Below are positions 13,107 to 61,069 of a DNA stretch of 64,000 nucleotides, piece after piece; within the stretch, counting starts at the first letter, position 1; each line of letters begins with the position of its first letter. The stretch comes from Marnyiella aurantia (lineage in GTDB: Bacteria > Bacteroidota > Bacteroidia > Flavobacteriales > Weeksellaceae): positions 248,001 through 312,000 of the forward strand of contig NZ_CP059472.1 of assembly GCF_014041915.1 (NCBI RefSeq), written 5' to 3'. Below the pieces are notes generated by a model. The model was given only the letters and a program-made list of their open reading frames with translations, was not told the origin of the DNA and searched no databases. The position numbers and the translations under genes are program-made.

Positions 13107-13129
13107 TGGGTTGAATAAAATGGAATATA

Positions 13130-44563: not shown

Positions 44564-44568
44564 CACAG

Positions 44569-44597
44569 ATCAGGACGAAAGTCCTGATTTTTTTTTG
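44569..44597 (+). terminator. Terminator of the receptor gene, at the island edge
   Basis: ATCAGGAC (44569-44576) pairs perfectly with GTCCTGAT (44581-44588) around GAAA, followed by nine T. The virE fragment begins about 20 bp further on. Confidence 0.93.
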
Positions 44598-44618
44598 GTA
44601 TTTGATAAATATAATTGA

Positions 44619-45740: not shown

Positions 45741-45782
45741 TAATCATTTTCTTTAAAAGCAGCCATAAAATTTACAGCCTTT

Positions 45783-45815
45783 AAAAGCAGTGCCAAAAGC
45801 ACTGCTTTTCTTTAT
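45783..45815 (+). terminator. Terminator after the virE fragment
   Basis: AAAAGCAGTGC (45783-45793) pairs perfectly with GCACTGCTTTT (45799-45809) around CAAAA, then a T-rich tail follows. Confidence 0.9.
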
Positions 45816-46105
45816 TTTATGGCAGTAAGGGCAGTAACCACTTTTGGGCAAAAAACTTTTTTTTATTTTTTCTTGAAAAAAAACATATGAATAATACAAC
45901 TTCCGAAGCAAACTAAAACACCCATTTCATTGTGCTGCATTCCACTTCCTAAGATTAATAGGTAAATTTTTGAACTAAAAAATAAATATTTTCTTTTGCT
46001 AAAGTTTGCTTACGTCCTTACTCCCTTTTTACACTTCATTCTTTTTCATTAAATTGCGCTATTGCTATTTCTTAGTGATGAATCTTTATCAGTATATGTA
46101 AAAAT
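45816..46105. other. AT-rich gap before the BREX-like locus
   Basis: About 290 bp without a gene. It includes two near-identical GGCAGTAA/GGGCAGTAA words at about 45822-45840 and long A/T runs. It should hold the promoter of the brxF-like gene, but no good TAnnTTTG element with TTG was found. No tRNA or integrase is visible. Confidence 0.4.
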
Positions 46106-46507
46106 ATGAATTTAGGGCAACGATCAAGGAATAAGATTATTGTACTCACAGAAGAACCGGAAAACTTGATTTTTCTGGATCTCGGCGCTGCAATTTCCTT
46201 AGCATTACAAAATATTCAGGATAAAAAAGACATCTCAAACTTGGCACTTCACAAATTAGAGCTGCTCTTTAGTCAACACACCCTACAAATGGATGATCAG
46301 ACTTATTATTTAGCTTTGAAAAACATCGGGATACTTTTTGAGAAGGAGCTTAATCTCGATATACCTAAAATAGTGGATAGATTTTCACAAAACAATATAT
46401 TGTTCATAAAATGGGAAGGTATCATAGAAAAAGGCAATTTATTCTTCCTAACCAAAGAGAAAGGAATTAAACTAAACATCAATAACCTCAGTTATACCAC
46501 AATATGA
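46106..46507 (+). CDS. brxF: BrxF-like protein of a BREX type-3-like locus, P-loop apparently lost
   Basis: The 133-residue product sits in the brxF position, first in the locus, and its stop overlaps the ATPase start (ATGA). The C-terminal half (ALKNIGILFEKELNLDIPKI, FSQNNILFIKWEGIIEKGNL) follows the pattern I recall for BrxF small P-loop proteins, in which a hydrophobic Walker-B-like strand precedes an Ile-LeuPhe and a late WpG/WeG turn. The N-terminus IIVLTEEPENLIFLDLG stands where a Walker A would be, yet no GxxxxGK[ST] is present. It may be a divergent, non-ATP-binding form. Family assignment rests on position and pattern, not on a search. The gene is AT-rich. Confidence 0.5.
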   Translation: MNLGQRSRNKIIVLTEEPENLIFLDLGAAISLALQNIQDKKDISNLALHKLELLFSQHTLQMDDQTYYLALKNIGILFEKELNLDIPKIVDRFSQNNILFIKWEGIIEKGNLFFLTKEKGIKLNINNLSYTTI

Positions 46508-49500
46508 AATATAAGGACATTATAAGTTTTGAACCGATTACCGAAGTAGTTAAGTTTAGTAGGACTACAGATAGAGAATACCAGGAAGCACTGATCAAAT
46601 CATTCGTATTTTCAGATACTTTTAAAGATTATTTGGTACCGTTAATGGTCAGTAATCTCGATTTTAACGGCTCCAACGAAATATTTGGTCTTCAGGTAGT
46701 GGGTAATTACGGGACAGGTAAATCACATTTAATGTCATTGATTTCACTGATCGCTGAAGATGAAACCTTGCTAAATCTCGTAAGCGATGATGGTGTTAAA
46801 TCGAAAATACAACCCATTGCAGGAAAATTTAAGGTATTGCGTTTTGAATTGGGAAACAGGGAAAGTCTGTGGGATGTGATAACTTTTCAGTTAACAAATT
46901 ATCTTAAATCAGTGGGCGTTGATTTTTCTTTCGACGGCCACGGCCCAAAATCTTACTTTGAAAAACTCATGCTGATGATGGCTGAGTTTGAGGAGAAATA
47001 TCCGGATAAAGGTTTAATGTTGGTTATTGATGAGATGTTGGCTTACTTAAAAAGCCGGGGTACTGCGGATAAGCTGAGTGATGACTTAACCGTCCTCCAG
47101 GCGCTGGGTCAGGCATGTGACCGCTCAAAATTTAAATTTGTTTTTGGCGTCCAGGAAATGATTTATCATGCTCCTGAATTCCAGTTTGCCTCTGAAATGT
47201 TGCGCAAAGTAAAAGACAGATACAAGGACATAAAAATCACAAAAGATGACGTAGCTTTCATTGTTAAAAACAGGCTTCTCCGTAAAGATGAGCATCAGAA
47301 ACAAATGGTAAAGGATCACTTGGATCCCTTTCTCAAGCTTTTTACCGATATGCATGCAAGGACGCAGGACTATATTGAGCTGTTCCCGGTTCATCCCACA
47401 TACTTTGAGAATTTTGAAAAGATTAAGATTGCAAAAAGTCAGCGCGAGATTCTGAAAACTTTATCCGGTCAGTTCGAGGAAATATTGGAGATGGAAATTC
47501 CCAAAGACAATCCAGGCATACTGACTTATGACAGGTATTGGGAGGATATGCAGAAGGATCAGTCCTTAATGTCGGAACCTGATATCAGAAAAGTAAAAGA
47601 AATAACAGATACAGTAAGAGATAAAATTGACACCTACTTTACCGGTGCAAGGGCATCGAAAATCGAAGTGGCAAAAAGGATTACAAATGCATGTGCAATT
47701 AAGGTGCTGCAGCAGGAGCTTCAGAAGCAGAACGGCACAAATGCAGAGCATCTAGTCGACGATTTATGCTTAACGGACAAATTGGCTTCAGACAGGGATT
47801 TTCTTATTGATGTAATTGATACAGCCGCACAACAGATTATCACTGCCACTTCTGGCCAGTATTTCGATAAGAATGCGGATAATGCCGAATACCACTTAAG
47901 GATTGAAGGAGGAATCAATTTTGACCAGAAAATTAAAGACTATGCCGCGACGATGGCAGATGCTCAGAAAGATGAATACTTCTTTAAATTCCTTGAAATT
48001 AATCTTCCTTTAGACTATGACACCTACCGTACAGGTTTCCGTATTTGGGAGCACACCGTAGAGTGGAAATCACACAAAACCTACCGCGAAGGATATATCT
48101 TCTTTGGAAATCCAAATGAGAAATCGACAACGCATCCGCGGCAGCATTTCTACATGTATTTCATGCCAATATTTGATGCTCAGAAGAAACTTCGGAATCA
48201 TGATGAGGACGAAGTATATTTTATTTTCGATAACCTTTCTGCGGAGTTTAAAAATGCAGTGACGCTCTACGGGGCGGCCCTGTCATTGGAAGTAAGGGCA
48301 GACAGTTCCCAGAAACCAATCTATCGGCAGAAAATTGATGAACTGAACAAGAAAGCCCGTGATCTCTTCAATCAGGAATATGTTCAGATCACCAGTGTAG
48401 ACTATATGGGAAAAGAGCTTCCCTTGAGTGGCTACCCCTTACCAGGGGCAGGGGCTTCAAAAGAACAGGTCTTTTCCGAAGTGGCTTCATTGGTCTTTGA
48501 GGAATGGTTTGATAATGAAAGACCGGATTATCCAAAATTTACCCAGCTAAATACACCCGTTACTAAAGACAATTACATACGGCTGGTAAAACAGGCGCTG
48601 CTTAAAATTGCAAATCCAGAGCAGTCAAACCGTGATGGCGAGGGGATCCTGTCGGGCTTAGGATTATGGATTCCCGGAATGCTCAGTTACGACAATTCAC
48701 CCTATGCACAGAGTCTGTTGCAGATGCTCAGGGCGAAAGGTGATGGTATGGTCCTCAACAAAGACGAAATGATGGAGTTCGTAGAACGAAGCAATAACTT
48801 GTGGCTCACCAAAGATTACCACATCGAAGCGGAACTGCAGTTCGTAGTGATGAGTGCATTGGCCGCACTGGGTGAAATTGAAATTACACTCAATTCCGGA
48901 AAAAGCATCAATTCAACAAACCTTAGTGATCTCAAAGATTTGCTTCCTCAGGATTTCTATTCGTTTACTCATATCAAACAGCCCAAAGGGCTCAATCTGG
49001 CAGCACTGAAACTCTTGTTCACCAATCTCCTCGGCAGGGATTTGAGTGCCCATCTTAAGGATCCTTCCACGTACACGGCATTGGTCGGCTCCGCAACCGA
49101 CTGGGCAAAACGCACCGTTTCTTTATTAAGTAAAATTCAGGGGGGATATATGTTCAAGGGGATTGAAATTATTTCTCCCCTCCAGGCTTCGGATTACCGG
49201 ATTCACTTCACCGCGTTCTCCGGCCTCTGTGACAAACTCGCTGGCTATACATCTGAAGCAAAAATTAAAAACTTTGCCTATACAGTAGAGGACTTAAACA
49301 GACTCCTCCCGGTAAAAACCACGGTGGAATCCTTGGAGAATCAGCTGGCAGAACTCGGCCTCCTGAACGAAGATCTTTCTTATCTGCAGCAGGCGCGCCA
49401 ATATGTCACGGATCCCGAATTTAAAGCAAAAATAGACCATACGGTTGCGCAGCTTCCTGCGGTAGTAGAATCCGGCAGTAAAAAAGAAATGGAAAAGTTC

Positions 49501-50163
49501 AGGAGTGAACTCAGTAAATTAAAAAATGAATATGCAGAATGGTACCTGTCGCTGTATCTCAAATACAGGATAAGCGAACGTGATGATACGCAGAAACAGG
49601 CACTCCTGAATTCTGAGAATCTTGCAGTGTGCACAATTCTTAAGGATGCAGATTTTCTTTCCGCGGGTCAGTATTATGCCTGGAACACAAGCATGCACCA
49701 GCTGAAAGTGGCGGACACCAAAGTTAATAAAGCCGCTGTACTTGCTGTGCCATACCAGGATTTCAACCCTCTGGAATACACCGGCGGACAGGTAATTTCC
49801 GTCGAATCAATGAAACACCAGCTTTCAGAGATCCTTACACAATGGACAGATGTCCTGTTGGAAACAATGGAGGATCCAATGGTAAAAAGAAAATTCAGCC
49901 TCTTGGATCAGGACGATCGGGAATTGCTGGCAGATTTCCAGTCAGGGAAAACCAAACTGTCAAAAGACAATGCATTACAGATAAGAAATGCAGTAATGGA
50001 TCTCCACAAAGGACTGGAAAAAGTGGAACTGGATTTTGAAGCGATTAAAAATACCTTCAACAGACCACTTACTCCGGATGACGCAGTACAGGTATTCAAA
50101 GAATACATAGACGTAATCACAAAGGGAAAGGAACGCGAGAAGATCCGCATTATCCTGAAATAG
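46504..50163 (+). CDS. brxC: BrxC/PglY-like P-loop ATPase (DUF6079 type) of BREX
   Basis: The 1219-residue protein is the large AAA-like ATPase of the locus. Walker A is GNYGTGKS at 67-74 and Walker B is LMLVIDEM at 171-178; FKFVFGVQEMIYHAPEFQF follows, as in the family core. The remaining 900 residues are mostly helical with several coiled-coil-like stretches (EKFRSELSKLKNEYAEWY). In BREX systems this subunit is essential for defence and for host methylation, probably by moving or remodelling the complex on DNA. It overlaps brxF by 4 bp. The last codons lie 26 bp before an inserted toxin-antitoxin-chaperone set rather than directly before pglX. Confidence 0.82.
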   Translation: MKYKDIISFEPITEVVKFSRTTDREYQEALIKSFVFSDTFKDYLVPLMVSNLDFNGSNEIFGLQVVGNYGTGKSHLMSLISLIAEDETLLNLVSDDGVKSKIQPIAGKFKVLRFELGNRESLWDVITFQLTNYLKSVGVDFSFDGHGPKSYFEKLMLMMAEFEEKYPDKGLMLVIDEMLAYLKSRGTADKLSDDLTVLQALGQACDRSKFKFVFGVQEMIYHAPEFQFASEMLRKVKDRYKDIKITKDDVAFIVKNRLLRKDEHQKQMVKDHLDPFLKLFTDMHARTQDYIELFPVHPTYFENFEKIKIAKSQREILKTLSGQFEEILEMEIPKDNPGILTYDRYWEDMQKDQSLMSEPDIRKVKEITDTVRDKIDTYFTGARASKIEVAKRITNACAIKVLQQELQKQNGTNAEHLVDDLCLTDKLASDRDFLIDVIDTAAQQIITATSGQYFDKNADNAEYHLRIEGGINFDQKIKDYAATMADAQKDEYFFKFLEINLPLDYDTYRTGFRIWEHTVEWKSHKTYREGYIFFGNPNEKSTTHPRQHFYMYFMPIFDAQKKLRNHDEDEVYFIFDNLSAEFKNAVTLYGAALSLEVRADSSQKPIYRQKIDELNKKARDLFNQEYVQITSVDYMGKELPLSGYPLPGAGASKEQVFSEVASLVFEEWFDNERPDYPKFTQLNTPVTKDNYIRLVKQALLKIANPEQSNRDGEGILSGLGLWIPGMLSYDNSPYAQSLLQMLRAKGDGMVLNKDEMMEFVERSNNLWLTKDYHIEAELQFVVMSALAALGEIEITLNSGKSINSTNLSDLKDLLPQDFYSFTHIKQPKGLNLAALKLLFTNLLGRDLSAHLKDPSTYTALVGSATDWAKRTVSLLSKIQGGYMFKGIEIISPLQASDYRIHFTAFSGLCDKLAGYTSEAKIKNFAYTVEDLNRLLPVKTTVESLENQLAELGLLNEDLSYLQQARQYVTDPEFKAKIDHTVAQLPAVVESGSKKEMEKFRSELSKLKNEYAEWYLSLYLKYRISERDDTQKQALLNSENLAVCTILKDADFLSAGQYYAWNTSMHQLKVADTKVNKAAVLAVPYQDFNPLEYTGGQVISVESMKHQLSEILTQWTDVLLETMEDPMVKRKFSLLDQDDRELLADFQSGKTKLSKDNALQIRNAVMDLHKGLEKVELDFEAIKNTFNRPLTPDDAVQVFKEYIDVITKGKEREKIRIILK

Positions 50164-50189
50164 CTTACCTATATAAAATTAACTTAAAA

Positions 50190-50732
50190 GTGAATAACTT
50201 TGCAGAAATAATTGAGGTTCAAAGGTTTCGAAAAGTCATCTTTTACACACTGTCAATAAATGGCGGGGACCCTTTATTTATACAGTTTAGAGACACACAT
50301 AATGTAAAAAATAAAGAAAAATTTAGTCACATTTTTAGCTGGATTAAATTAATTGGTAATAAATACGGCGCAGATACCCAATATTTTAGAAACGAGGCTA
50401 AGACAGCTGATGCTGGCGCCTTACCTCCCAAAGGCGTTGATAGAGAGCCCGGCTATGTAGAGTACAATGAAGAAGCAGAAACTTATGAGAATAAACCCAA
50501 TAATTTAAGATTGTATTGCCTGAGAGCAAATAGATCGGTAGTGTTTCTTTTTAATGGTGATATTAAATTAGCGGATAAGGCTAAGGACTGTGATAACGTA
50601 AGAGGCCATTTCAAATTGGCCAATAAATTGTCTGAATTAATTAATAATGCGTTCCGGGAAAAAAACATTCGTTGGATAAATGATGATGCTGAAATTGAAG
50701 TCGACGATGATTTTTTATTGGAATGGGAATAA
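50190..50732 (+). CDS. Putative RelE/HigB-like toxin of a toxin-antitoxin-chaperone set
   Basis: GTG at 50190 starts a 180-residue AT-rich gene. The product has an N-terminal RFRKVIFYTLSINGGDPLF strand pair, IFSWIKLIGNKYGADTQYFR in the middle, and NLRLYCLRANRSVVFLFNGD at about 105-123. This last hairpin is where RelE/HigB-type toxins carry the LRI-Y-R and I-L-F strands. Helices follow (FKLANKLSELINNAFREK). An XRE antitoxin and a SecB-like chaperone gene follow directly. No ADP-ribosyltransferase motif is recognised. The toxin label is inferred mainly from context; a divergent defence effector is the alternative. Confidence 0.5.
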   Translation: MNNFAEIIEVQRFRKVIFYTLSINGGDPLFIQFRDTHNVKNKEKFSHIFSWIKLIGNKYGADTQYFRNEAKTADAGALPPKGVDREPGYVEYNEEAETYENKPNNLRLYCLRANRSVVFLFNGDIKLADKAKDCDNVRGHFKLANKLSELINNAFREKNIRWINDDAEIEVDDDFLLEWE

Positions 50733-50740
50733 AATATAAT

Positions 50741-51127
50741 ATGAAAAAGTTAGGAACTCCAATTACAGATTGGTTAGATAAATATGGCGACCCGGAAATT
50801 GAAAAATTCATAGATAAGAACCTGCAGGTAACCGAAAAAGTCCGCCTTGCCCTCGAAGCAAAAGGATGGAAAGCTGCAGATCTTGCAGCCGCTATGGGAA
50901 AATCCCCCTCCGAAGTATCCAAATGGCTGACAGGCATGCACAATCTAACCCTAAAAAGCATCGTGAAGATGGAAACCGCTTTAGGGATAGAACTCATTCA
51001 TACAGAGGCGGTGAAGGAATACGAATATGTATTTCTCGGGGCAGTGACGGGTACTCAGGAACATATCGCAAAAGCCCAGGCCTATAAAGAGAGTGTGCAG
51101 AGCGAAGTCTACGAAATTGCATTATAA
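50741..51127 (+). CDS. XRE-family helix-turn-helix protein, HigA-like antitoxin
   Basis: The 128-residue protein starts MKKLGTPITDWLDKYGDPEI. The lambda-repressor-type HTH lies at about 33-85 (VRLALEAKGWKAADLAAAMG then SPSEVSKWLTG and LTLKSIVKMETALGIEL). A C-terminal tail follows (TGTQEHIAKAQAYKES), the place where chaperone-addicted antitoxins carry their SecB-binding tail. An ATG at 50723 would add six residues and overlap the toxin gene by 10 bp. The gene is far less AT-rich than the toxin gene. It probably binds the toxin and represses the module. Confidence 0.78.
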   Translation: MKKLGTPITDWLDKYGDPEIEKFIDKNLQVTEKVRLALEAKGWKAADLAAAMGKSPSEVSKWLTGMHNLTLKSIVKMETALGIELIHTEAVKEYEYVFLGAVTGTQEHIAKAQAYKESVQSEVYEIAL

Positions 51128-51129
51128 AC

Positions 51130-51564
51130 ATGGAAAAAAAACAGCCGCAGATCGTTGCTGAAGAAATACACCTGCTCCTTGTGGACACCACAGAGTTCAG
51201 ACTGAACGCAGAGGAATTTCGCAATACAGAAAAGCGCTTGCTCGAAGTAGCCCACAAACTGGCGTATAATCTGAAAGACGAAAAACTGAAGATTGAACTC
51301 GCATTGTCCTTTAAAGATGAAGCGGGTAACGAATTGCTTTTCCTCACCACAGATTATCATTTCCGCGTCGAAAAGCTGGAACAGTTTTACGACCTGAAAG
51401 AAGATGGAACCCCCATCTTCAAAGCGATGATCCTGGCAACAGTCCTTGGGATTGCTTTATCCACTTCACGCGGGATTCTCCTCGAGAAAATGAACGCTGC
51501 AAAGCTGCCTAATATTATCATTCCCGTGGTCTCCCCAGTGAAACTGCTGAAGCAGAAACCGTAA
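51130..51564 (+). CDS. SecB-like chaperone of a TAC-type module
   Basis: The 144-residue product starts 2 bp after the antitoxin gene. Alternating strands (EEIHLLLVDTTEFRLNAEEF, KIELALSFKDEAGNELLFLT, DYHFRVEKLEQFYDL) precede a long helix (FKAMILATVLGIALSTSRGI) and the tail AKLPNIIIPVVSPVKLL. This matches the SecB order of four strands, one helix and the closing LP-x-L-P-P-x-F/x-L motif. SecB-like chaperones next to HigBA pairs form toxin-antitoxin-chaperone systems, several of which defend against phage. Assignment is by fold pattern and position. A terminator follows. Confidence 0.62.
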   Translation: MEKKQPQIVAEEIHLLLVDTTEFRLNAEEFRNTEKRLLEVAHKLAYNLKDEKLKIELALSFKDEAGNELLFLTTDYHFRVEKLEQFYDLKEDGTPIFKAMILATVLGIALSTSRGILLEKMNAAKLPNIIIPVVSPVKLLKQKP

Positions 51565-51582
51565 AGAAACAACAGATCACAG

Positions 51583-51608
51583 ATCCGGTTCCAAAGCCGG
51601 ATTTTTTA
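51583..51608 (+). terminator. Terminator between the TAC-like module and pglX
   Basis: ATCCGG at 51583-51588 pairs with CCGGAT at 51597-51602, extended by a T-G wobble, with six T after it. It would separate brxF-brxC-TAC transcription from pglX. Confidence 0.75.
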
Positions 51609-51625
51609 TATTTAAAAAAATAGCC

Positions 51626-54259
51626 ATGACTGAAAATCTCTTCCCCTCCAATAAAACTGAAAATAAACCGATAACCGTACTCGGCAAAACTTTCGGCTCC
51701 GAAGATGAACGCCGCACTTACTTTCGCGAAGAACTCAGGAAAAAACTGCCTGAACTCAAACAAATGGAAGGCTTCCCCATTGGCGAAGATGAGGACATTA
51801 TCAACTTATCAGATCCGCCGTACTATACTGCCTGCCCCAATCCCTGGTTAAACGATTTGATTGCTGAGTGGGAAGAAGAGAAAAAAGAAATGGAAAAGCA
51901 GGGCCTGCGGTCTGCAGAGTTTGAAGTTAATGCACCATATCCAGAGGACATAAAATCCGGCAAAAATCACGCTATCTACAATGCACATTCTTATCATACT
52001 AAAGTACCACACGAAATCACAACAAAATTTTTGTTTTACTATTCTCAACCTGGAGACATAATTATCGATACATTCGCTGGAACAGGTATGACAGGAGTTG
52101 GTGGATCATTTTGCGAAAATATTACACAAGAACAAGAAGCAATTACGAGAATCAAAAGTGATTTCGCTACATTTAAGAAAGAGATAGCTATAGGAAAAAG
52201 AAAGGTAATCAATATTGATTTATCCTCTGTCGCATCCCATATTTCAAATATTTATAACTCAGATTTTGATAAGAATTCTTTTTTACATTATTATTCAAAA
52301 CTGAAATCTCATTTAGAGCAATTTAAAGAGTATTTCGAGGTTGAACACCATAATGCAAAAGGTACAATTAATTACACTGTTTACTCACAACTGTACACTT
52401 GTAATCAATGCCAAACAGAATTTGATTTTTATATTGCAGCTTATGTGAGTGATAATGAATTAAGAGAAAAAACTAAATGTCCTCATTGTAGTTATGAAGA
52501 ACAGAAGAGTAAATTAACGCCGCTTTACAAGACTAAAATTGATCCTATTACAGGGGATGCAATAAACCAAATATGTTATAAACCAATTCTTATAAATTAT
52601 TCTAATAACAAAAAGAGATTTACAAAAGCACCTTCCACTAATGATATAAAAAGATCTGAGGCTGATTTTATTGATAAAAAATTTGTACCTAATGCTTCAT
52701 TAATTGAAGGGGTTGAAACAAGGAGAAATGATAAATATGGGTATACACATGTTCACCATTTTTACACCAGTAGAACATTAGGTTTTATATCTGAATATTT
52801 AAAATTTATTCAAGACTTCGACCATAAAAATCACTTCTTATTTTTGCTAACTGCGATTCTTCCAAAGTTAACAAAGCTAAATAGGTATATGCCTCAACAT
52901 GGAAGTAGAGCCCTTGTAGGCCCAATGGCAAACACCTTGTATCTGCCGCCCCTATTCGTTGAAAACAACTTCATTGATCAGATGGAATTTCAGTTTAAAA
53001 AGATTACCAAAGCATTGGAAGTCTGCTCAAGACAGACAGTTTCTCAACAATCAGCCACTGATCTATCTAATATTAAAAACGATTCAATTGATTACGTTTT
53101 TATTGATCCTCCGTTCGGCGCAAATATTATGTACTCAGAATTAAATAATATTTCAGAAGCTTGGCTTCAAGTATTAACAAATAATAAAGAAGAGGCTATA
53201 GAAAGTAAAGGTCAAAACAAAGGTAAATTTGAGTATGATAATTTAATGGTAAAATCATTTGGTGAATTATATCGTATTATGAAACCAAATGCATGGATGA
53301 CCATTGAATTCTCGAACACATCATCTGCTATTTGGAACATAATCCAAAATGGAATTAATAGAGTTGGTTTTATTGTTGCAAAAGTTGATGCTCTTAATAA
53401 AACAAGAGGTGGGTTACATGCCATGTTAGGTCCTGTTGCAGTAAAACAGGATTTAGTAATTACGTGCTATAAGCCCTCAACAAAATTGGTTGCTGAAATT
53501 TATAAGAAACAAGATGTTTGGTCTTTTATTTTAGAACACTTAAATCATCTTCCTATATACTTATCCCTGCACAATTCAACCACCGCCATTATCGAACGCA
53601 GTCCAAAAATTCTTTTCGACAGATTAATTTCCTTCTATGTACAGCGCTCGCTCCCGGTTCCAATCGATGCGGGTAAATTTCAGCAGGGTCTCCGGGAGCG
53701 TTTTATAGAACGCGACGGCATGTTTTTCACCCATGAACAGGCTGCAGAATATGAAAAAAAGAAAGCGGAAGTTCCCAACTTTATCCAGCTAAGCATATTT
53801 GTAGCCAGTGAGCAGGATGCCATCTACTGGCTCCGTAATATTTTGGATAAGGCTCCAAAAACTGAGCAGGATCTGCACCCATTATGGATGAAAGAGGTGG
53901 CCACAAACATGCGCAAAGGAGATAATCTCCCGGAAATGCGTACCATCCTTGAAGAAAACTTCTTAAAAGACGATGCAGGAAAGTGGTACGTTCCCGACGC
54001 AGAGAATGAAGCCGATCTGGAGAAACTGCGTAACAGACGCCTGATGAAGATTTTTGAAGATTACAGAGCCGAAGCTTCAAAACCGAAAGGCAAACTCAAG
54101 GAAGTCCGCGTCGAAGCCCTTCGCGCAGGTTTCAAACAGTGTTACCAGGACAAGGACTTCACCACCATCGTAACAGTAGGCGATCGTATTCCGAATAACC
54201 TCCTCATGGAAGACGAAGTCCTGCTCCAGTTTTACGATATAGCGGTTTCAAGAGTATAA
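51626..54259 (+). CDS. pglX: PglX-type DNA methyltransferase of BREX (Zn-ribbon containing), mosaic
   Basis: The 877-residue protein has SDPPYYTACPNP at 62-73, the SAM-binding motif DTFAGTGMTG at 148-157, a zinc-ribbon with CNQC (259-262) and CPHC (285-288), and the catalytic IDPPFGANIMYSEL with DPPF at 494-497. A C-terminal domain of about 225 residues follows. This order fits N6-adenine methyltransferases of the PglXI group that mark host DNA in BREX type 3. The first about 110 and last about 225 codons are near 38-62 percent GC per 60-bp line, whereas the middle falls to about 22-35 percent. That points to replacement of the methyltransferase core. Confidence 0.82.
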   Translation: MTENLFPSNKTENKPITVLGKTFGSEDERRTYFREELRKKLPELKQMEGFPIGEDEDIINLSDPPYYTACPNPWLNDLIAEWEEEKKEMEKQGLRSAEFEVNAPYPEDIKSGKNHAIYNAHSYHTKVPHEITTKFLFYYSQPGDIIIDTFAGTGMTGVGGSFCENITQEQEAITRIKSDFATFKKEIAIGKRKVINIDLSSVASHISNIYNSDFDKNSFLHYYSKLKSHLEQFKEYFEVEHHNAKGTINYTVYSQLYTCNQCQTEFDFYIAAYVSDNELREKTKCPHCSYEEQKSKLTPLYKTKIDPITGDAINQICYKPILINYSNNKKRFTKAPSTNDIKRSEADFIDKKFVPNASLIEGVETRRNDKYGYTHVHHFYTSRTLGFISEYLKFIQDFDHKNHFLFLLTAILPKLTKLNRYMPQHGSRALVGPMANTLYLPPLFVENNFIDQMEFQFKKITKALEVCSRQTVSQQSATDLSNIKNDSIDYVFIDPPFGANIMYSELNNISEAWLQVLTNNKEEAIESKGQNKGKFEYDNLMVKSFGELYRIMKPNAWMTIEFSNTSSAIWNIIQNGINRVGFIVAKVDALNKTRGGLHAMLGPVAVKQDLVITCYKPSTKLVAEIYKKQDVWSFILEHLNHLPIYLSLHNSTTAIIERSPKILFDRLISFYVQRSLPVPIDAGKFQQGLRERFIERDGMFFTHEQAAEYEKKKAEVPNFIQLSIFVASEQDAIYWLRNILDKAPKTEQDLHPLWMKEVATNMRKGDNLPEMRTILEENFLKDDAGKWYVPDAENEADLEKLRNRRLMKIFEDYRAEASKPKGKLKEVRVEALRAGFKQCYQDKDFTTIVTVGDRIPNNLLMEDEVLLQFYDIAVSRV

Positions 54260-54267
54260 CGACGAAT

Positions 54268-54403
54268 AAATCATTCGGTAAACGATGATAAACGCATTAA
54301 TGAATGATTTACTACACATACAGCAACGAAATAATTTGTTATATTTGTATGATAAATCAATCGTTATATTAAGAAATCCGGCTTTATGAATGATAAATCA
54401 ATC
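54268..54403 (+). promoter_or_regulatory. Promoter and operator-like repeats of hipBA
   Basis: A perfect -7 element TATATTTG lies at 54340-54347, 38 bp before the hipB ATG. Upstream, AAATCATTC (54268-54276) and GAATGATTT (54302-54310) form a 9-bp inverted repeat. TGATAAATCAATC occurs twice, at 54350-54362 and 54391-54403, the second copy inside the hipB start. These are candidate HipB binding sites for autoregulation. Confidence 0.55.
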
Positions 54404-54739
54404 AAAAATTTAGAATCCTGGAGCGACAGTGCGCTTTTGCAGTTCATAGGCGCATTTGTGAAGCACCAGCGTTTGCAACAGAACAAAACACAGGACGACC
54501 TGGCAACTGCCGCCGGTATCAGCCGCTCAACCTTAAGTTTATTGGAACGGGGTAATACTGTTACCCTTGCCACATTGATACAGGTATTGCGGATTTTGGA
54601 TCAGTTACATGTTCTGAATGTTTTTCAGATAGAACAGACAGTAAGCCCCTTAGCGTTAGCAAAATTGCAAAAAGAAAAGCGCCAGCGCGCAAGGGGGACA
54701 TTGCATAATGACGGAAATACAGAACAGACAGATTGGTAA
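54386..54739 (+). CDS. hipB: HipB-like XRE antitoxin
   Basis: The 117-residue protein has a clear XRE helix-turn-helix: KHQRLQQNKTQDDLATAAG then SRSTLSLLERGNTVTLATLI (about 27-65), followed by a HipB-like tail with LALAKLQKEKRQRARG. HipB proteins bind HipA and repress their operon. Operator-like repeats lie upstream. The stop overlaps the hipA start (TAATG). It lies in the defence locus between pglX and the helicase gene. Confidence 0.85.
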   Translation: MNDKSIKNLESWSDSALLQFIGAFVKHQRLQQNKTQDDLATAAGISRSTLSLLERGNTVTLATLIQVLRILDQLHVLNVFQIEQTVSPLALAKLQKEKRQRARGTLHNDGNTEQTDW

Positions 54740-56043
54740 TGAAAGTAGCGGAGATTAAAATTTGGGGAAAATTGGTCGGAGCGGTGGCTTGGGACACAGA
54801 AACAGAACTGAGTACTTTTGAATATGACCCAGAATTTAAAAAATTGGGCTGGGAACTGGCACCCCTTAAAATGTCAGTGAAGAATCCTCGGAGTCAGTTT
54901 TCTTTTCCGGAATTAAGGAAGAGTAAAAATGCAGAGCATGACACATTCAAAGGTTTGCCGGGTTTGTTGGCAGACGCACTGCCTGATAGATACGGAAACC
55001 AACTGATTAATCTTTGGCTGGCGCAACAGGGCCGCCCCCAGGATAGTATGAATCCGGTAGAAATGCTCTGTTTTATTGGAACTAGGGGCATGGGTGCACT
55101 GGAATTTGAACCAGCTTCGCTTGTAACCTCAAAACAGACATTTAACATAGAACTTGATAGTTTGGTTTCCACTGCTAAAAAAATGCTCGACCGTCGGGAA
55201 GAGTTTTCCACAAATCTGAATAAACAGGAAGAGCAGGCTGTCGCTGAAATTTTAAAAATTGGTACATCAGCAGGAGGAGCAAGACCAAAAGCGGTCATAG
55301 CTTGGAACGAAAAAACGGGTGTTGTAAAGTCAGGTCAGACAAAAGCACCAAAAGGATTTGAGCACTGGCTCATAAAACTTGATGGCGTAAGTGATGTGCA
55401 GTTGGGAAGCAGTACAGACTATGGTCGTGTCGAAATGGCATATTATGAAATGGCGACCGCATGTGGAATAGAAATGATGCCGTCGCGATTGTTTGAAGAA
55501 AATGGACGGGCGCATTTTATGACCAAAAGATTTGACAGAGAAGGCAATAACATAAAACATCATGTCCAGACTTTTTGTGCGCTGAAACACTATGATTATA
55601 ATCTGGTCAGCAGTTTCAGTTACGAGCAGCTGTTTCAGTGCATGCGCGAATTAAAACTGTCTTATGCTGATGCCGAACAGATGTATAGAAGGATGGTGTT
55701 TAATGTCATTGCACGAAATTGTGACGATCATACTAAAAATTTCTCATTCTTGCTTAGGGAGGGAGCTAATTGGGAACTAGCTCCTGCATATGACATTTGC
55801 CATGCTTATCGCCCTGATAGCAAGTGGGTAAGTCAACATGCTTTAAGCATTAACGGAAAAAGACAGGGCTTTACAAAACAAGATCTGATTACAGTGGGCG
55901 AATCAATAAAATCTAAAAAATCAGAAGCTATTATTGATGAAATAACAGATGTGGTGAGCCAATGGAAAACCTTTGCAGACAAAACCAAAGTTACTCCTTC
56001 TCTGCGCAATGAGATTGGCAAAACTTTATTAAACCTAAAGTAA
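54739..56043 (+). CDS. hipA: HipA-like serine/threonine kinase toxin
   Basis: The 434-residue kinase has the HipA order: N-terminal couple_hipA domain (GKLVGAVAWDTETELSTFEY, LPDRYGNQLINLWLAQQGRP), then the glycine-rich loop GTSAGGARPK at 175-184. The catalytic segment is RNCDDHTKNFSFL at 326-338 and the metal-binding APAYD at 348-352. All key residues look intact. HipA phosphorylates glutamyl-tRNA synthetase in E. coli; targets of other HipAs vary. The TTG at 54733 was rejected in favour of the ATG at 54739. The gene ends 4 bp before the brxHII-type helicase gene, so both are probably on the hipBA transcript. Confidence 0.88.
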   Translation: MKVAEIKIWGKLVGAVAWDTETELSTFEYDPEFKKLGWELAPLKMSVKNPRSQFSFPELRKSKNAEHDTFKGLPGLLADALPDRYGNQLINLWLAQQGRPQDSMNPVEMLCFIGTRGMGALEFEPASLVTSKQTFNIELDSLVSTAKKMLDRREEFSTNLNKQEEQAVAEILKIGTSAGGARPKAVIAWNEKTGVVKSGQTKAPKGFEHWLIKLDGVSDVQLGSSTDYGRVEMAYYEMATACGIEMMPSRLFEENGRAHFMTKRFDREGNNIKHHVQTFCALKHYDYNLVSSFSYEQLFQCMRELKLSYADAEQMYRRMVFNVIARNCDDHTKNFSFLLREGANWELAPAYDICHAYRPDSKWVSQHALSINGKRQGFTKQDLITVGESIKSKKSEAIIDEITDVVSQWKTFADKTKVTPSLRNEIGKTLLNLK

Positions 56044-56047
56044 AGGG

Positions 56048-58819
56048 ATGTGGTACAAAGATAATCCCTGTGAAATCATTGGGCAGAAAGAAGTATTCGG
56101 ACAGCAGATTGCCTGGATACGGTTATTGGATTCCGGCGAATTTCGCGAGGTTCCGCTTGAGGAGGTGGAAGACCGCCAGATCGCCTGTTCCATGCCGTTT
56201 ATTCAGTATGTGGCAATTGCTGCTAAAATCAAAGATGAAATGGCCAGGAAAAATATTCTGGCGCCCTACGAAAGCAGTCTTATTCCTTTGCCGCATCAGA
56301 TTCTTGTACTGGAAAAAGTAATTAAGTCAGGTCACAACCGTTTCCTGCTGGCTGATGAAGTGGGCATGGGAAAGACCATAGAAACAGGCCTTATTCTAAA
56401 GGAACTGAAAATCCGCGATGAGATAAAACGGATCTTGGTCATCGTTCCGAAATCTTCAATGATGCAGTGGCAGAGCGAACTGAAAGAACATTTCAACGAA
56501 GTGTTTCATCTCTATGATTCCGAAATGATTACTTCTATGGCGCGCACATTTGCAAACATCAATGCCGACGAAGAATACAATTTTTGGAAGCAGCACAACC
56601 AGATCATTGTATCCACCGATGCATTAAAGCCACTGGAACGCAGACAGGGCTGGCCTCAGGAACGTATTGATGAGTACAACCGGTATAGGATGGACGCTGT
56701 TCTGGACGCTGATTTCGATTTGGTGATCATTGACGAAGCCCACAAGATGGGCGGAGCGAACAGCCTCGTGTCACGATATGTCCTGGCACAGGAACTGTGC
56801 AACACGGTTCCCAATGTCCTTTTGCTCACCGCAACTCCCCACAGGGGAAAATCAGATCATTTCCGGCGGATATTGCAGCTGTTGGATCCCGATGCTTTTG
56901 CCGGTGAAGGTCTCCCTGAAATTTCTGAGCTCGAACCTTATGTAATCCGTACCGAAAAAAGACTGGCAGTGGATTATGAAGGAAACAGACTTTTTAATCA
57001 CCGCACAACAAACAGATTTGATGTGTTTCTGGATATAAAACGCCATCAGAAACAGATGCAGCTCTATCAGGCGGTAACAGAATATGTACGGCAGGGGTTC
57101 AACGCTTCAAAACGCACTTCCAATAAAGCCACAGGCCTTATCATGATACTGTTTCAGCGTCTGGTCAGCAGTTCCACACAGGCAATCCTTTCTGCGATGC
57201 AGGGAAGGCTGAACCGGCTTCAGGCGGGGGAACAGTCACAACCCGGAGATTTTGAAATCGATGCGGATCAAGCTTCAGATTTTGAAGACTGGGACACACT
57301 GAACCTCGAGGGCATATACCAAAGGGATCATCAGGAATGGGAAGATGAAGAGGAACAGTTACAGAAGTTGATTGATCAGGCACAGGATTGCCTGAACACC
57401 GAGACCGATGCAAAAACAGAATCCCTATTGAAGAAATTGGAGGAACTGCAGCAACTCGAAAACGACAGGAATCTTAAAATCCTCGTTTTTACAGAGTTCC
57501 GTTCCACACAGAAAATGCTGGTTACTTTCTTCCGCAACAGAGGATACATCGTCAGTCACATTCATGGAAGTCAGGATCTTGATGAGAGAAAGAGAGCACT
57601 GTCAGATTTCAGGCAGAAAAGCCAGCTGTTGATTGCCACAGACGCAGCAGGAGAATCACTGAACATGCAGTTTTGCCATATTGTTTTCAATTATGATTTG
57701 CCTTGGAACCCCATGATGATTGAACAGCGGATTGGCCGCGTGGACCGTATTGGACAGAAGTCGCCGGTTCTTGCATTTAATATGTTGACAGATAACAGTG
57801 TCGATGCCCGCGTATATGAAGTAATTGAAGAAAAACTTAGTAACATACTGCACCAGCTCGGCATTGATAAAACATCAGATGTTTTGGACTCTGCCATCGA
57901 CATGAAAAAAGTAAATGGCCTCTACCTTCAGAGCTTGCTCGATCCTGAAAAGTTTGAATTTGCAGGCGACAGGTGGTTACACGAGATACGCAAAAAGCTT
58001 AAGGAATTTAAAAGTACCGAGGGTATTCTTCCTCAGATACAGGAGAAGGACATCAATTGTAGAAAAGCAGCAGAAATAAAACACAGTCCTTTACCATACT
58101 GGCTGGAAGCTCTGGTTACCCAGAATGTGATTTTGAATAAGGGTTCACTTCAGAAAAGTGAGCAGGGCTATACGGATATCACCCTGAAGAATGAGAACAA
58201 AAAAGTAACCTACGATGCAGAAATTGCCGTCAACAACCCCGAGGTCGAGCATCTAACCCTGCAAAACGGTTGGATTAAAAGCATCCTGAATCAGTTGACA
58301 GATTTTGATACAGCTGCCGGTATTCCCGTGATAAGATCAGAAAACGGAGAAGATACACCAGGCTATTGGAGTTTGTGGCAGGTTTCTGCACGCAACAGCA
58401 TGGAACAGAGTATCCATTACCAGAGCTTCTTTCACGCAGATAACGGCAGGCAGTATGCGGTTTATGCAAACGATATTTGGAATAGACTCTTAGATCCGGA
58501 TTCCGCTTTTCGTTTCATTACCGTTGAGAAAAACTTGCAGACCCAGCATTTACTTGAGGTGAGTGGTGTAGCTCTGCATGAAGTGTTTCAGCGGGCCGTA
58601 GCTGAGATGAAGGTAGCAGCAGAAGTTAAAAAAGAAAACCGGAAGAAAGCGTTTTTAGCACAGAAATTAAGGGTGCAGAAAATAGGGATTGAAAATATCA
58701 GGAATTCAAAAATGAATCGTCTGGAAAAAGAATATCAGGACTGGCTGAGAGATTTTGAAAGTAACCAGAAAATAATTCCAGGAATGAAAAACTTAATAAT
58801 AGTTCGCATTGATGGGTAA
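56048..58819 (+). CDS. brxHII: SNF2-family helicase, BrxHII/DrmD-like
   Basis: The 923-residue helicase has an N-terminal RapA-like region (1-80). Then come the Walker A LADEVGMGKTIETG at 101-114, DEAH at 229-232, LLTATPHRGKSDHF at 259-272 and, in the C-terminal lobe, VFTEFRSTQKML, LLIATDAAGESLNMQ and IEQRIGRVDRIGQ. The last 250 residues are helical. In BREX type 3 the gene order brxHII-pglZ is diagnostic; DISARM DrmD is a close alternative by sequence, but no drmA, drmB or drmC is here. It would act as a dsDNA translocase. Its 3' end overlaps pglZ by 8 bp. Confidence 0.85.
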   Translation: MWYKDNPCEIIGQKEVFGQQIAWIRLLDSGEFREVPLEEVEDRQIACSMPFIQYVAIAAKIKDEMARKNILAPYESSLIPLPHQILVLEKVIKSGHNRFLLADEVGMGKTIETGLILKELKIRDEIKRILVIVPKSSMMQWQSELKEHFNEVFHLYDSEMITSMARTFANINADEEYNFWKQHNQIIVSTDALKPLERRQGWPQERIDEYNRYRMDAVLDADFDLVIIDEAHKMGGANSLVSRYVLAQELCNTVPNVLLLTATPHRGKSDHFRRILQLLDPDAFAGEGLPEISELEPYVIRTEKRLAVDYEGNRLFNHRTTNRFDVFLDIKRHQKQMQLYQAVTEYVRQGFNASKRTSNKATGLIMILFQRLVSSSTQAILSAMQGRLNRLQAGEQSQPGDFEIDADQASDFEDWDTLNLEGIYQRDHQEWEDEEEQLQKLIDQAQDCLNTETDAKTESLLKKLEELQQLENDRNLKILVFTEFRSTQKMLVTFFRNRGYIVSHIHGSQDLDERKRALSDFRQKSQLLIATDAAGESLNMQFCHIVFNYDLPWNPMMIEQRIGRVDRIGQKSPVLAFNMLTDNSVDARVYEVIEEKLSNILHQLGIDKTSDVLDSAIDMKKVNGLYLQSLLDPEKFEFAGDRWLHEIRKKLKEFKSTEGILPQIQEKDINCRKAAEIKHSPLPYWLEALVTQNVILNKGSLQKSEQGYTDITLKNENKKVTYDAEIAVNNPEVEHLTLQNGWIKSILNQLTDFDTAAGIPVIRSENGEDTPGYWSLWQVSARNSMEQSIHYQSFFHADNGRQYAVYANDIWNRLLDPDSAFRFITVEKNLQTQHLLEVSGVALHEVFQRAVAEMKVAAEVKKENRKKAFLAQKLRVQKIGIENIRNSKMNRLEKEYQDWLRDFESNQKIIPGMKNLIIVRIDG

Positions 58820-60266
58820 TTCACTGATTGAAAATATCGTTAAAGATTTTAAAGACCACGGGTCTTCTGTTTTGTGCGTGGAAAATAATGACAGGTTTTT
58901 GTACCGGAAAGAGGTGCAGACAGCCTTAAAAGAATCCGGATTTTCTGTTTCAATAGGTTCAAACCTCAAACACCGCATTGATTTTGAATTAAGAGAACCA
59001 GAGGATCGGCTCCTACTCCTTTCACAGGATAATACATCATACCTTGAGGATATAAAATTAAAATCTTTCCCTTTGGAATGGAACCTTGCGTATTATCTTA
59101 AGAACATTCACATCCCATCCGTCATAAACGAGCCACTGGATATTTTGGAGAAAATATTTGTAAAACAGATTTTTAAAAAACACAGCCGCCGTGAAACCGA
59201 ACAGCTTATTGCAGAACTGCAGTCCTTAGCACCATATGCCAAACCTTTTGACCTTGCAAGTTTTGAGTATCAGGTAAAGCAGGATTTAAGCGAAGAAATT
59301 ATCAACTGGGGGGTAGTAATTAGGAGAACTGCAGAGGCGGTCAGAGACACAATAGGTACAGAAGAATTTACTGCAGTTATTAATTCCGTCACTGAAATCA
59401 ATAATGCATTCCAGGACTATCTCGCAATTGGCTACAGTCAGATTAAAAACGCAAGTGCGGTAAAAAAACCTAAGATTGTATCCAAAATTCTTGAGCATTT
59501 GGCGTTCAGTTATCAGGATGAAAAAGTAGCGTTAATAGTCATTGATGGTTTGTCATGGTGGCAGTACATGATGTTGAAGGAAGTTTTGCCTGCTAAAATT
59601 ACTGATGATGTAATTTTTTCCTGGATTCCCTCCATTACACAGCTTTCACGACAGGCAATTTTCAGAGGATGTACTCCGCTTCCGGAATATAAACAGAGTC
59701 CACAGAGTGAGGAAAAGCTTTGGAAAGACTTCTGGAAATCAAAGGGAACAAACGAATTTGAAATTGCGTACCTCCATCAGAACTTCCAGGAAGACCGCTT
59801 ACACGTATTATCCAAATTGGCACTCGTTTACAAAGATTTGGATGATAAGATGCACGCATCAACAGACTATCATGATTTGAAAGGCCTGACGGAAAATTGG
59901 ATTCAGAGAAGCAACATAAGAAACGATGTTCAAAAGTTACTGGCAAACGGTTTTACAGTTTTTCTCACTTCTGATCATGGCAATATTCAGGCACAGGGCT
60001 GGCGCAATTTAACGGGGCGGGAAAAACTCGGAACAAATAAATCCGGCAGCAGAAGCCAGCGTCACCTGGAATACACCGATCAATGGCTGATAGATCAGCT
60101 GTTATCGGACAATCCTGGATTAACAGAAAACGTAATTAAGGAAAATCAGTCACTTTATTTTAAAAACAACTTCAGTTTTTCGTCAGCATCTTCACTGGTG
60201 ACACATGGCGGTGCACATATTCTTGAAGTTTTAATTCCATTTGTAAAGATCAGCAATGAAAAGTAA
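58812..60266 (+). CDS. pglZ: PglZ-domain alkaline-phosphatase-superfamily protein of BREX
   Basis: From the ATG at 58812 the protein has 484 residues. The N-terminal 230 residues are helical. The PglZ core follows with LIVIDGLSWWQYMM at 241-254 (metal-binding Asp), PSITQLSRQAIFRGCTP at 273-289, FLTSDHGNIQAQG at 384-396 and the C-terminal THGGAHILEVLIPF at 464-477. This is the diagnostic PglZ set of all BREX types; the family core is thought to be a phosphodiesterase or nuclease. The upstream TTG at 58809 adds one residue only. It is shorter than most BREX-3 PglZ proteins. It overlaps the following gene by 11 bp. Confidence 0.88.
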   Translation: MGNSLIENIVKDFKDHGSSVLCVENNDRFLYRKEVQTALKESGFSVSIGSNLKHRIDFELREPEDRLLLLSQDNTSYLEDIKLKSFPLEWNLAYYLKNIHIPSVINEPLDILEKIFVKQIFKKHSRRETEQLIAELQSLAPYAKPFDLASFEYQVKQDLSEEIINWGVVIRRTAEAVRDTIGTEEFTAVINSVTEINNAFQDYLAIGYSQIKNASAVKKPKIVSKILEHLAFSYQDEKVALIVIDGLSWWQYMMLKEVLPAKITDDVIFSWIPSITQLSRQAIFRGCTPLPEYKQSPQSEEKLWKDFWKSKGTNEFEIAYLHQNFQEDRLHVLSKLALVYKDLDDKMHASTDYHDLKGLTENWIQRSNIRNDVQKLLANGFTVFLTSDHGNIQAQGWRNLTGREKLGTNKSGSRSQRHLEYTDQWLIDQLLSDNPGLTENVIKENQSLYFKNNFSFSSASSLVTHGGAHILEVLIPFVKISNEK

Positions 60267-60876
60267 ATCGGTAGATATTAACCAGAGAATCCCCTTAGAG
60301 ATTCTTGCAGTCGCATTGCATGGCTACCTCACAGGTAATTATCATGAAAACTATATGCTGGAACAGCTGCGACTGGAATTTAAAGGAGAAAACCGCATAC
60401 GGAAAGCTTTACGGATAATAGGTAAAATCATTACCGATAACCCAATGCAGAAAATGCTGCAGGAAAAAAACGAAGAAATCCTTTTGGCTTTAAAAAAGAA
60501 AGACGACCGCAATTTAATCTTAATTTCCTTGCTCAATGCTGCCTTTCCCTTTTCATTCCATGTTTTACAGATATTTGGCAAGTACCTCTCTGTCCAGGAA
60601 ATGGTAAGCACAGAAACAGTCCTTCGCACACTATCTGCAACATATGGTGGAAACAGGGCAACGGAAAACGGCCTTTACAGTGTCGTCCCGATGTTTATCC
60701 AGGCCGGGCTGCTGCGCAGACCAAAGATGGGTATATATGTATTGAACGAATCATTTACCCCCAGTTCAGACATATCGGCAAAATTGTTTGAAGAATCTTT
60801 TGTATCAGTCAACCTTATTACTGATTTACATGAACGCAGTGTGATGGATCCGTACTTTATTTACATAAAAGCCTGA
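60256..60876 (+). CDS. brxA: BrxA-like (DUF1819-type) small protein of BREX
   Basis: The 206-residue all-helical protein starts MKSKSVDINQRIPLEILAVA and ends MDPYFIYIKA. It has FKGENRIRKALRIIGKIITD, NLILISLLNAAFPFSFHVLQ and a late FIQAGLLRRPKMGIY. The order and hydrophobic pattern fit the BrxA/DUF1819 family, which is the last gene of BREX type 3; BrxA binds DNA in other systems. Sequence matching is weak, so position weighs heavily. It overlaps pglZ by 11 bp, so it is translationally coupled. Confidence 0.55.
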   Translation: MKSKSVDINQRIPLEILAVALHGYLTGNYHENYMLEQLRLEFKGENRIRKALRIIGKIITDNPMQKMLQEKNEEILLALKKKDDRNLILISLLNAAFPFSFHVLQIFGKYLSVQEMVSTETVLRTLSATYGGNRATENGLYSVVPMFIQAGLLRRPKMGIYVLNESFTPSSDISAKLFEESFVSVNLITDLHERSVMDPYFIYIKA

Positions 60877-61069
60877 AATTTAAAATGATAAAACCTTTGC
60901 ATACCATAATTAGTAGAAAAAACAGGGATGTCGAAGCACTGGCGCGACTATAACACCCTTTATATTGTCGCCTTGATTTTATAATACACAATTAAAAGAA
61001 CACTTAATACAAAACATACACAATGATGAAAGATATTGTTATTACTTCTACCTTAACTCAACACTACAA

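Follow-up and report, generated by a model that had tools for sequence, protein, structure and literature searches.

Toxin–antitoxin modules inserted on either side of pglX in a BREX type 3 operon of Marnyiella aurantia

Bacteriophage exclusion (BREX) systems of type 3 carry six genes in the canonical order brxF, brxC, pglXI, brxHII, pglZ and brxA, as laid out in PMC10799925 and PMC12839542, and further genes have been found within or beside BREX loci. PMC10799925 describes BxaP (ORF376), a stand-alone protective gene between PglXI and BrxHII in type 3 BREX, and counts it in 21 of 7308 metagenome-assembled genomes (MAGs) with BREX. BREX loci also contain genes for Schlafen, HEPN, PIN and OLD-ATPase proteins, described as auxiliary or backup effectors (PMC12839542), and a type IV enzyme lies beside type 1 BREX genes (PMC8565348). 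The systems CmdTAC, MqsRAC and HigBAC combine a toxin, an antitoxin and a SecB-like chaperone (toxin–antitoxin–chaperone, TAC), and phage defence was shown for the known ones (PMC9519451 and PMC11980606). Here we analysed a window of 64,000 nucleotides from the genome of Marnyiella aurantia (contig NZ_CP059472.1, positions 248,001 to 312,000 of the forward strand), which holds a BREX type 3 operon with two inserted modules, a putative TAC triad and a hipBA toxin–antitoxin (TA) operon, one on either side of pglX.

The operon occupies positions 46106-60876 in the order brxF-brxC-(triad)-pglX-(hipBA)-brxHII-pglZ-brxA. All 11 open reading frames (ORFs) lie on one strand, at the coordinates that a first-pass annotation of the window, made from the sequence alone, had given:

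46106..46507, + strand: brxF (PADLOC BrxF 3.9e-7 over residues 65-114, weak but specific)
46504..50163, + strand: brxC, a PglY-type ATPase (PADLOC BrxC 3.3e-273; DUF6079 4.6e-262; 4-bp overlap with brxF)
50190..50732, + strand: putative toxin of the slot 1 triad, PDC-M64A (7.8e-76)
50723..51127, + strand: Xre-type antitoxin of slot 1, PDC-M64B (1.2e-68; HTH_3 1.8e-10), with a C-terminal extension
51130..51564, + strand: SecB-like chaperone of slot 1, PDC-M64C (4e-47; predicted SecB fold)
51626..54259, + strand: pglX, type 3 methyltransferase (PADLOC PglX/PglXI 1.6e-276)
54386..54739, + strand: hipB of slot 2 (HTH_3 5.2e-11)
54733..56043, + strand: hipA kinase toxin of slot 2 (HipA_C 1e-54, whole profile; Couple_hipA 3.5e-14)
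56048..58819, + strand: brxHII helicase (PADLOC BrxHI/BrxHII 1.8e-257), starting 4 bp past hipA
58809..60266, + strand: pglZ (PADLOC PglZ 4.9e-47; PF08665 3.6e-14; 11-bp overlap with brxHII)
60256..60876, + strand: brxA (PADLOC BrxA 1.7e-9, weak but specific; 11-bp overlap with pglZ)

PADLOC and Pfam profiles placed all six BREX genes in BREX families. brxF opens the operon and brxA closes it (the profile matches of these two are weak), and between them brxC, pglXI, brxHII and pglZ follow in the expected order, which bears out the type 3 gene order that the first-pass annotation had proposed. The top model for the helicase was labelled BrxHI/BrxHII, and the separate BrxHII model matched as well (3.5e-78). 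The six genes and their order are thus those of canonical BREX type 3, but here the operon is split by modules at brxC/pglX (slot 1) and at pglX/brxHII (slot 2). An assembly artefact is unlikely because the source genome is a single contig of 2,613,493 bases and 99.75% complete. The locus is a BREX type 3 operon with two truly inserted modules. The hipBA operon sits at the same junction as BxaP; BxaP is a single gene, whereas here the insert is a two-gene TA operon and a second module occupies the other slot. The triad shares the gene set of CmdTAC, MqsRAC and HigBAC, but its toxin belongs to another or unplaced family and it is nested in BREX. The slot 2 module shares with known HipBA the HTH antitoxin and a HipA with full HipA_C and N-terminal domains, but lies in the middle of a defence operon, 4 bp ahead of brxHII. 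On balance we favour a reading in which the locus provides layered abortive defence, with possible regulatory capture, in a BREX type 3 system with a fixed frame and a variable middle centred on pglX.

Junctions were compared in 33 BREX-3-like loci found by PglX similarity, 31 from the window's phylum (the window included) and two from viral-collection contigs; this is a convenience sample and its loci are not independent. Loci and genomes are cited below by our own numbers (L and G), and a junction insert means 250 bp or more. Inserts were present in slot 1 of 19 of 30 loci and in slot 2 of 17 of 24, and elsewhere at none of the junctions brxF/brxC (0/26), brxHII/pglZ (0/19) and pglZ/brxA (0/19). 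The empty slots (11/30 for slot 1 and 7/24 for slot 2) had gaps of 0-100 bp. Inserts were also found between tandem pglX copies (2/3) and, in loci without a helicase call between pglX and pglZ, at the pglX/pglZ junction (1/2). The slot 1 gap of L128 was scored as occupied though no clear operon-strand gene lies there. Excluded were loci with only a pglX tail (L019/L037/L132, L021 and L035/L131), distant methyltransferases in unclear context (L024/L031, L027/L032 and L025/L033), a locus with a decayed pglX (L130), two with pglX only (L140 and L141), the cut-off locus of G989 (L072) and same-place duplicates. An apparent brxHII/brxA insert in L118 was rejected, as the stretch is pglZ itself, open in one frame. 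The recurrence of inserts at the two pglX-flanking junctions is real and, in this sample, exclusive to them, and the profiles confirm that the triad splits brxC from pglX and HipBA splits pglX from the helicase, as had been annotated.

BREX-3-type PglX was rare at E <= 1e-30, with matches in 2 of 296 genomes of the family and 5 of 395 of the class; at E <= 1e-60 it was found in 13 of 395 genomes of the phylum (each count including the window's own). The comparison with related genomes that the first-pass annotation had proposed came down to one other locus, L028 in the family genome G021, and it came out in part: the triad is at the same site, but the hipBA site is empty (8 bp). Searches with PglX returned L139-L142 from viral contigs and six records from plasmids. 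Tandem pglX copies in a single BREX-3 operon were seen in L005, L010 and L029, with a 137-aa protein separating two of the three pairs, and the G704 genome carries two different BREX-3-type loci, L118 and L119.

The identified occupants of the slots were nearly all abortive-type or candidate defence genes, including Schlafen, AbiE, AbiU, HEPN and PARIS-like types. Slot 1 encodes Schlafen-type proteins in L014, L015 and L029, a RecD-like PDC-S68 protein in L007 (the L010 protein has the same length) and PDC-S02 in L121 (the L126 and L129 proteins have the same length). Slot 2 holds HipBA in the window, L006 and L012, AbiEi with AbiEii in L007, AbiEi alone ahead of brxHII in L018, HEPN_AbiU2 in L006, Schlafen in L015, AbiU and a HEC-03B-like protein in L122, an AriA-like protein in L127, a HEC-02A-like protein in L139, a DpdF-like helicase in L012 and a PIN protein in L128. 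Slots 1 and 2 are permissive sites for abortive-type defences. Not every insert was shown to be a defence gene, because several occupants lack a family match.

The same survey bears on a simpler explanation, that the two slots are passive landing sites, junctions where an insert leaves translational coupling intact, and that the modules are functionally unrelated to BREX. Neighbouring genes overlapped in 51 of 64 cases at the three closed junctions and in 0 of 54 at the two open ones, as this explanation would have it; the occupants are very varied, and HipA relatives are common outside BREX (82 of 395 genomes of the phylum at E <= 1e-60, the window's included). But 69 of the 72 insert ORFs of at least 100 aa (ORFs called mechanically) lie on the operon strand, the identified occupants are defence genes to the extent given above, and both the mostly BREX-bound triad lineage and the tight placement of TA operons before brxHII described below speak against it. 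We regard passive insertion as a possible but unlikely account.

In slot 1 of the window M64A, M64B and M64C are adjacent, as in the PADLOC candidate system PDC-M64. The antitoxin has a conserved extension after its HTH_3 domain, to which a role in chaperone addiction may putatively be assigned. For the third protein, profile searches gave no Pfam match and no convincing PDB sequence match, so the first-pass call of a SecB-like protein was upheld by the predicted fold and not by sequence. The best of five models had a predicted local distance difference test (pLDDT) score of 81.1 and two of the five scored about 33, from a three-row alignment. The model resembled Escherichia coli SecB (Foldseek 5e-5, TM about 0.55-0.57, VIA Z 11) and the Mycobacterium tuberculosis TAC chaperone Rv1957 (Foldseek 2e-4, VIA Z 9), and on this predicted structure the protein qualifies as the SecB-like member of a TAC system. 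The M64A protein may bear some likeness to RelE/HigB. Across the five BREX triads the gap between brxC and the toxin gene is 26-53 bp, so slot 1 is probably transcribed from an upstream promoter. A terminator-like hairpin follows the triad:

51581..51604, + strand: terminator-like hairpin (10 pairs), downstream of the SecB-like gene and ahead of pglX, found in the window only among the five triads

The first-pass annotation had read this hairpin as evidence of real insertion. The scan gave 16 terminator-like sites against 13.8 in shuffles (standard deviation 3.6), no excess. In the four other BREX triads only 14-44 bp separate the SecB-like gene from pglX, so the hairpin is not part of the triad module. 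If functional, it would leave pglX poorly transcribed unless there is read-through or an unseen promoter.

The complete triad occupies slot 1 of five loci, those of the window, G021, a Bacteroidales MAG, Algoriphagus and G704. Among 395 Bacteroidia genomes the M64A family was present in 24, one of them the window's, and at 27 places in all. We examined 20 of the 26 places outside the window, and on the stretch examined none had brxC or a whole pglX; a toxin was called at 19 of them, with BLASTP identities to the window's toxin of no more than 40%. The other BREX triad toxins were 50-53% identical to the window's by BLASTP and 47-53% in the multiple alignment, in which the L098 toxin reached 44%. 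A joined tree of 23 rows contained a supported group (100/99) of seven rows, five of them the BREX triads. L098, which lies outside BREX, belongs to the same group and has a toxin and an antitoxin-like gene, with no chaperone found. An earlier clade of BREX triads only (100/100) came from a 20-row tree that omitted the nearest non-BREX toxins and was withdrawn after the 23-row tree. The approximately unbiased test neither showed nor rejected a clade of the five BREX triads alone (p-AU 0.315; 0.378 for the toxin-alone tree). Most of this triad lineage is thus bound to BREX, and so are all of its complete triads that we saw. On the backbone tree the presence of the triad needs four changes, three of them forced by well-supported branches; the triad was therefore repeatedly gained, lost or exchanged. 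A viral-collection contig (L138 4396-4797) carries, outside BREX, a truncated M64A toxin of this BREX-rich lineage without antitoxin or chaperone. In the viral contigs the window's M64A toxin matched nothing and the M64A alignment matched L138 only, and the plasmid collection contained no triad toxin.

In slot 2 an HTH antitoxin gene is followed by a HipA with kinase and N-terminal domains, and the kinase region aligns with solved HipT proteins. The HipA proteins of the three BREX loci (window, L006 and L012) do not form one clade (p-AU 0.0001), which indicates that hipBA entered BREX at least twice. In our reading it was acquired separately from the triad. In the tree the window's HipA clusters with that of L006, two tail-bearing orphans and one more (97/92). 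Around the 29 best non-window HipA loci no intact BREX locus was found within the roughly 1.5 kb examined, and in two of these loci, L035 and L037, the 3' tail of a pglX precedes hipB. HipA was found in 121 records of the plasmid collection, all below 60% identity. The region ahead of hipB carries probable regulatory sites:

54260..54404, + strand: hipB promoter region with TATATTTG at -46 and probable HipB boxes at 54346 and 54387 (partly circular consensus)

Of 34 regions upstream of hipB (two of which are the same place), 12 have the element TAnnTTTG, the Bacteroidetes -7 motif, at -46, the three BREX regions among them. An 18-bp palindrome-like box recurs upstream of hipB; the window's copy is degenerate and exceeds mononucleotide shuffles (p 0.001), in a test that is partly circular since the consensus comes from the same regions. 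Only the sites at 54346 and 54387 match the box consensus at 11 or more of 14 positions within 46001-61000. The distance between hipA and brxHII is +4 bp in the window, -1 bp in L006 and +2 bp in L012, and that between AbiEii and brxHII is -11 bp in L007, so that all four complete TA operons recognised in slot 2 abut brxHII (-11 to +4 bp). Because hipBA brings a promoter region with it and stops 4 bp short of brxHII, HipB may control BrxHII, PglZ and BrxA as well.

Taken further, this arrangement would make the slot 2 modules mainly regulators: the distal BREX genes would have come under the control of a recruited antitoxin repressor (HipB or AbiEi), with the toxin in a secondary role. The coupling to brxHII in four of four operons and the promoter region upstream of hipB fit this idea, as does AbiEi without AbiEii ahead of brxHII in L018. 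HipA, however, retains a full-length kinase domain, many slot 2 occupants (AbiU, AriA-like, Schlafen and PIN) are not TA repressors, and 7 of 24 loci have no slot 2 insert. We consider a mainly regulatory role rather improbable.

The gene between the two slots has a history of its own. In the backbone tree the sister of the window is G021 (support 99), and in the PglX tree it is the first pglX of L005 (support 100). The PglX tree rejects the grouping of the window with G021 (p-AU 2e-5) and the backbone tree rejects the window with the L005/L010 pair (p-AU 1.3e-4). Identities favour L005 over G021 for pglX (68.8 vs 55.3%) and brxF (38.9 vs 34.8%) and G021 over L005 for the other four BREX genes; among the five loci compared, brxC and brxHII of the window are closest to L015. 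The conflict between the trees indicates that pglX was exchanged relative to its operon backbone. Isolated pieces of pglX were also found in six genomes, all C-terminal, with lengths of about 20, 41, 44, 44, 47 and 112 aa:

L124, 4574-4714: pglX 3'-end piece
L128, 8072-8194: pglX 3'-end piece
L130, 12634-12765: pglX 3'-end piece
L021, 9998-10129: pglX 3'-end piece
L131, 999-1058: pglX 3'-end piece
L132, 1936-2271: pglX 3'-end piece

The tails in L124 and L128 lie between slot 2 modules and share 88% DNA identity with the locus's own pglX tail. In L130, whose pglX is decayed, the stretch 12642-13224, made up of the tail and the start of the next gene, a DEAD helicase, shares 95.7% identity over 583 bp with the pglX tail and next gene in L124; the tail and its module thus seem to have arrived as one unit. 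In L021, G777 and G780 the tails adjoin AbiE or HipBA. The tails may stem from insertion by an integrase at the 3' end of the gene or from decay of a tandem pglX copy; no integrase was found near them among the ORFs scanned, and some small ORFs fell outside the scan. A seventh piece, in G814 (L129), is N-terminal; it directly adjoins the pglX of that locus and resembles a broken start. In L132 a RES/Xre toxin–antitoxin pair (313-1469) lies upstream of the pglX tail and HipBA, so that several TA modules stand together where BREX seems to have been lost.

Orphan HipBA (two genomes) and AbiE (one) lie by a pglX stump, and the stretch examined contains no further BREX gene. This suggests that modules can outlive BREX; the orphan HipBA contigs are short (5,460 and 4,337 bases), and a BREX remnant past their ends is possible. 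These orphans bear on the guard role that the first-pass annotation had suggested, in which the nested modules kill the cell if BREX is lost or inhibited; such guard or addiction modules would thereby stabilise the operon. In Shewanella putrefaciens a composite genomic island is stabilised by HipAB (PMC8978831), and by this analogy it is possible that hipBA stabilises the surrounding DNA; because the modules lie inside the operon, large deletions would take the antitoxin too. Yet this is the weakest reading, and a very doubtful one, given the orphan modules, the empty slots, HipBA and two of the seven members of the triad lineage (both incomplete) outside BREX, the absence of any sequence feature tying either module to the sensing of BREX inhibition, and the fact that point mutations in BREX genes would go unpunished, since only deletions that remove the antitoxin would be punished.

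Layered abortive defence with possible regulatory capture is the account that we prefer to these alternatives. Its fixed frame is brxF-brxC on one side and brxHII-pglZ-brxA on the other, and its variable centre is pglX, the predicted setter of the DNA mark, with the two flanking permissive slots. The TAC triad of slot 1 would most likely form a second, abortive layer, a suggestion of the first-pass annotation made plausible by precedents for TAC systems and for slot 2 (PMC9519451, PMC11980606 and PMC10799925). By analogy with CmdTAC and HigBAC, a phage product would sequester the chaperone, leading to failure of the antitoxin and arrest of the cell by the toxin; HipA would contribute a further arrest. 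Without HipB, the levels of HipA and also of BrxHII, PglZ and BrxA would probably rise. We infer toxicity, the phage trigger and shared regulation. Several observations weigh against this account. The M64A toxin has no Pfam or PDB sequence match (with profiles of up to 22 members) and its fold was not predictable (AlphaFold2 pLDDT 38.5, four-row alignment). A terminator-like site, with no clear promoter, stands ahead of pglX, and the HipB boxes of the window are degenerate. Two members of the triad-toxin lineage lie outside BREX, so its tie to BREX is not strict. No family match was found for the slot 2 protein of L016, two of the three in L017, those of L030, the 137-aa protein of L010 and the 86-aa ORF of L007.

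A bolder proposal for BREX-3 of Bacteroidota, which we put forward tentatively and think unlikely to hold, is that pglX and its flanking slots form an exchangeable centre that recruits TA operons, that the slot 2 antitoxin (HipB or AbiEi) governs transcription of BrxHII-PglZ-BrxA, and that the 3' end of pglX is the recombination point at which modules enter and leave. If so, losing the antitoxin in the course of an infection would trigger cell arrest and BREX restriction at the same time.

An abortive gene in slot 2, auxiliary effectors inside BREX and the concept of embedded defences are already published. The last of these is stated in the title of a 2024 preprint by Payne et al. (bioRxiv 10.1101/2024.01.29.577857), and the PADLOC PDC set, the source of PDC-M64, reportedly comes from that work. 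The main text of PMC12839542 does not mention HipA, SecB or HigB, and the sections consulted do not describe slots flanking pglX. In passages from part of the papers that searches of the open-licence PMC library brought up, no TAC system or HipBA inside BREX-3 was found, but such an arrangement may be in print. As far as these searches go, four features may be new: the restriction of inserts to the two pglX slots, a TAC lineage found mostly in BREX, scars of pglX tails and a TA promoter region ahead of BREX effector genes. They turn one odd locus into a testable rule, that two of five BREX-3 junctions, those flanking the swapped gene, take abortive modules. Nesting becomes predictable, unknown abortive genes can be sought in the slots, and the locus offers a direct test of whether a TA repressor can control a system resembling restriction–modification.

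The DNA to the right of the operon had no match in four relatives, and the regions reached through its left neighbour gene lack collinearity on the far side. The window contains no tRNA, and 44500-64000 gave no Rfam match. Upstream of the operon an ORF with a VapE-like domain (44745-45740; PF05272 5.3e-42) is perhaps a remnant of a mobile element. Downstream, an ORF from 61070 runs out of the window and encodes a TmtA-like protein of 2295 aa with sacsin/HSP90-type ATPase and helicase domains; the next gene encodes a PDC-S68 protein of 1278 aa, related to the protein in slot 1 of L007. These two genes (L147 4071-14825) extend the defence stretch past the window. Elsewhere in the same genome (G000:C1:2379400-2380614) a second protein is weakly similar to PglZ (26%) and is perhaps the PorX regulator.

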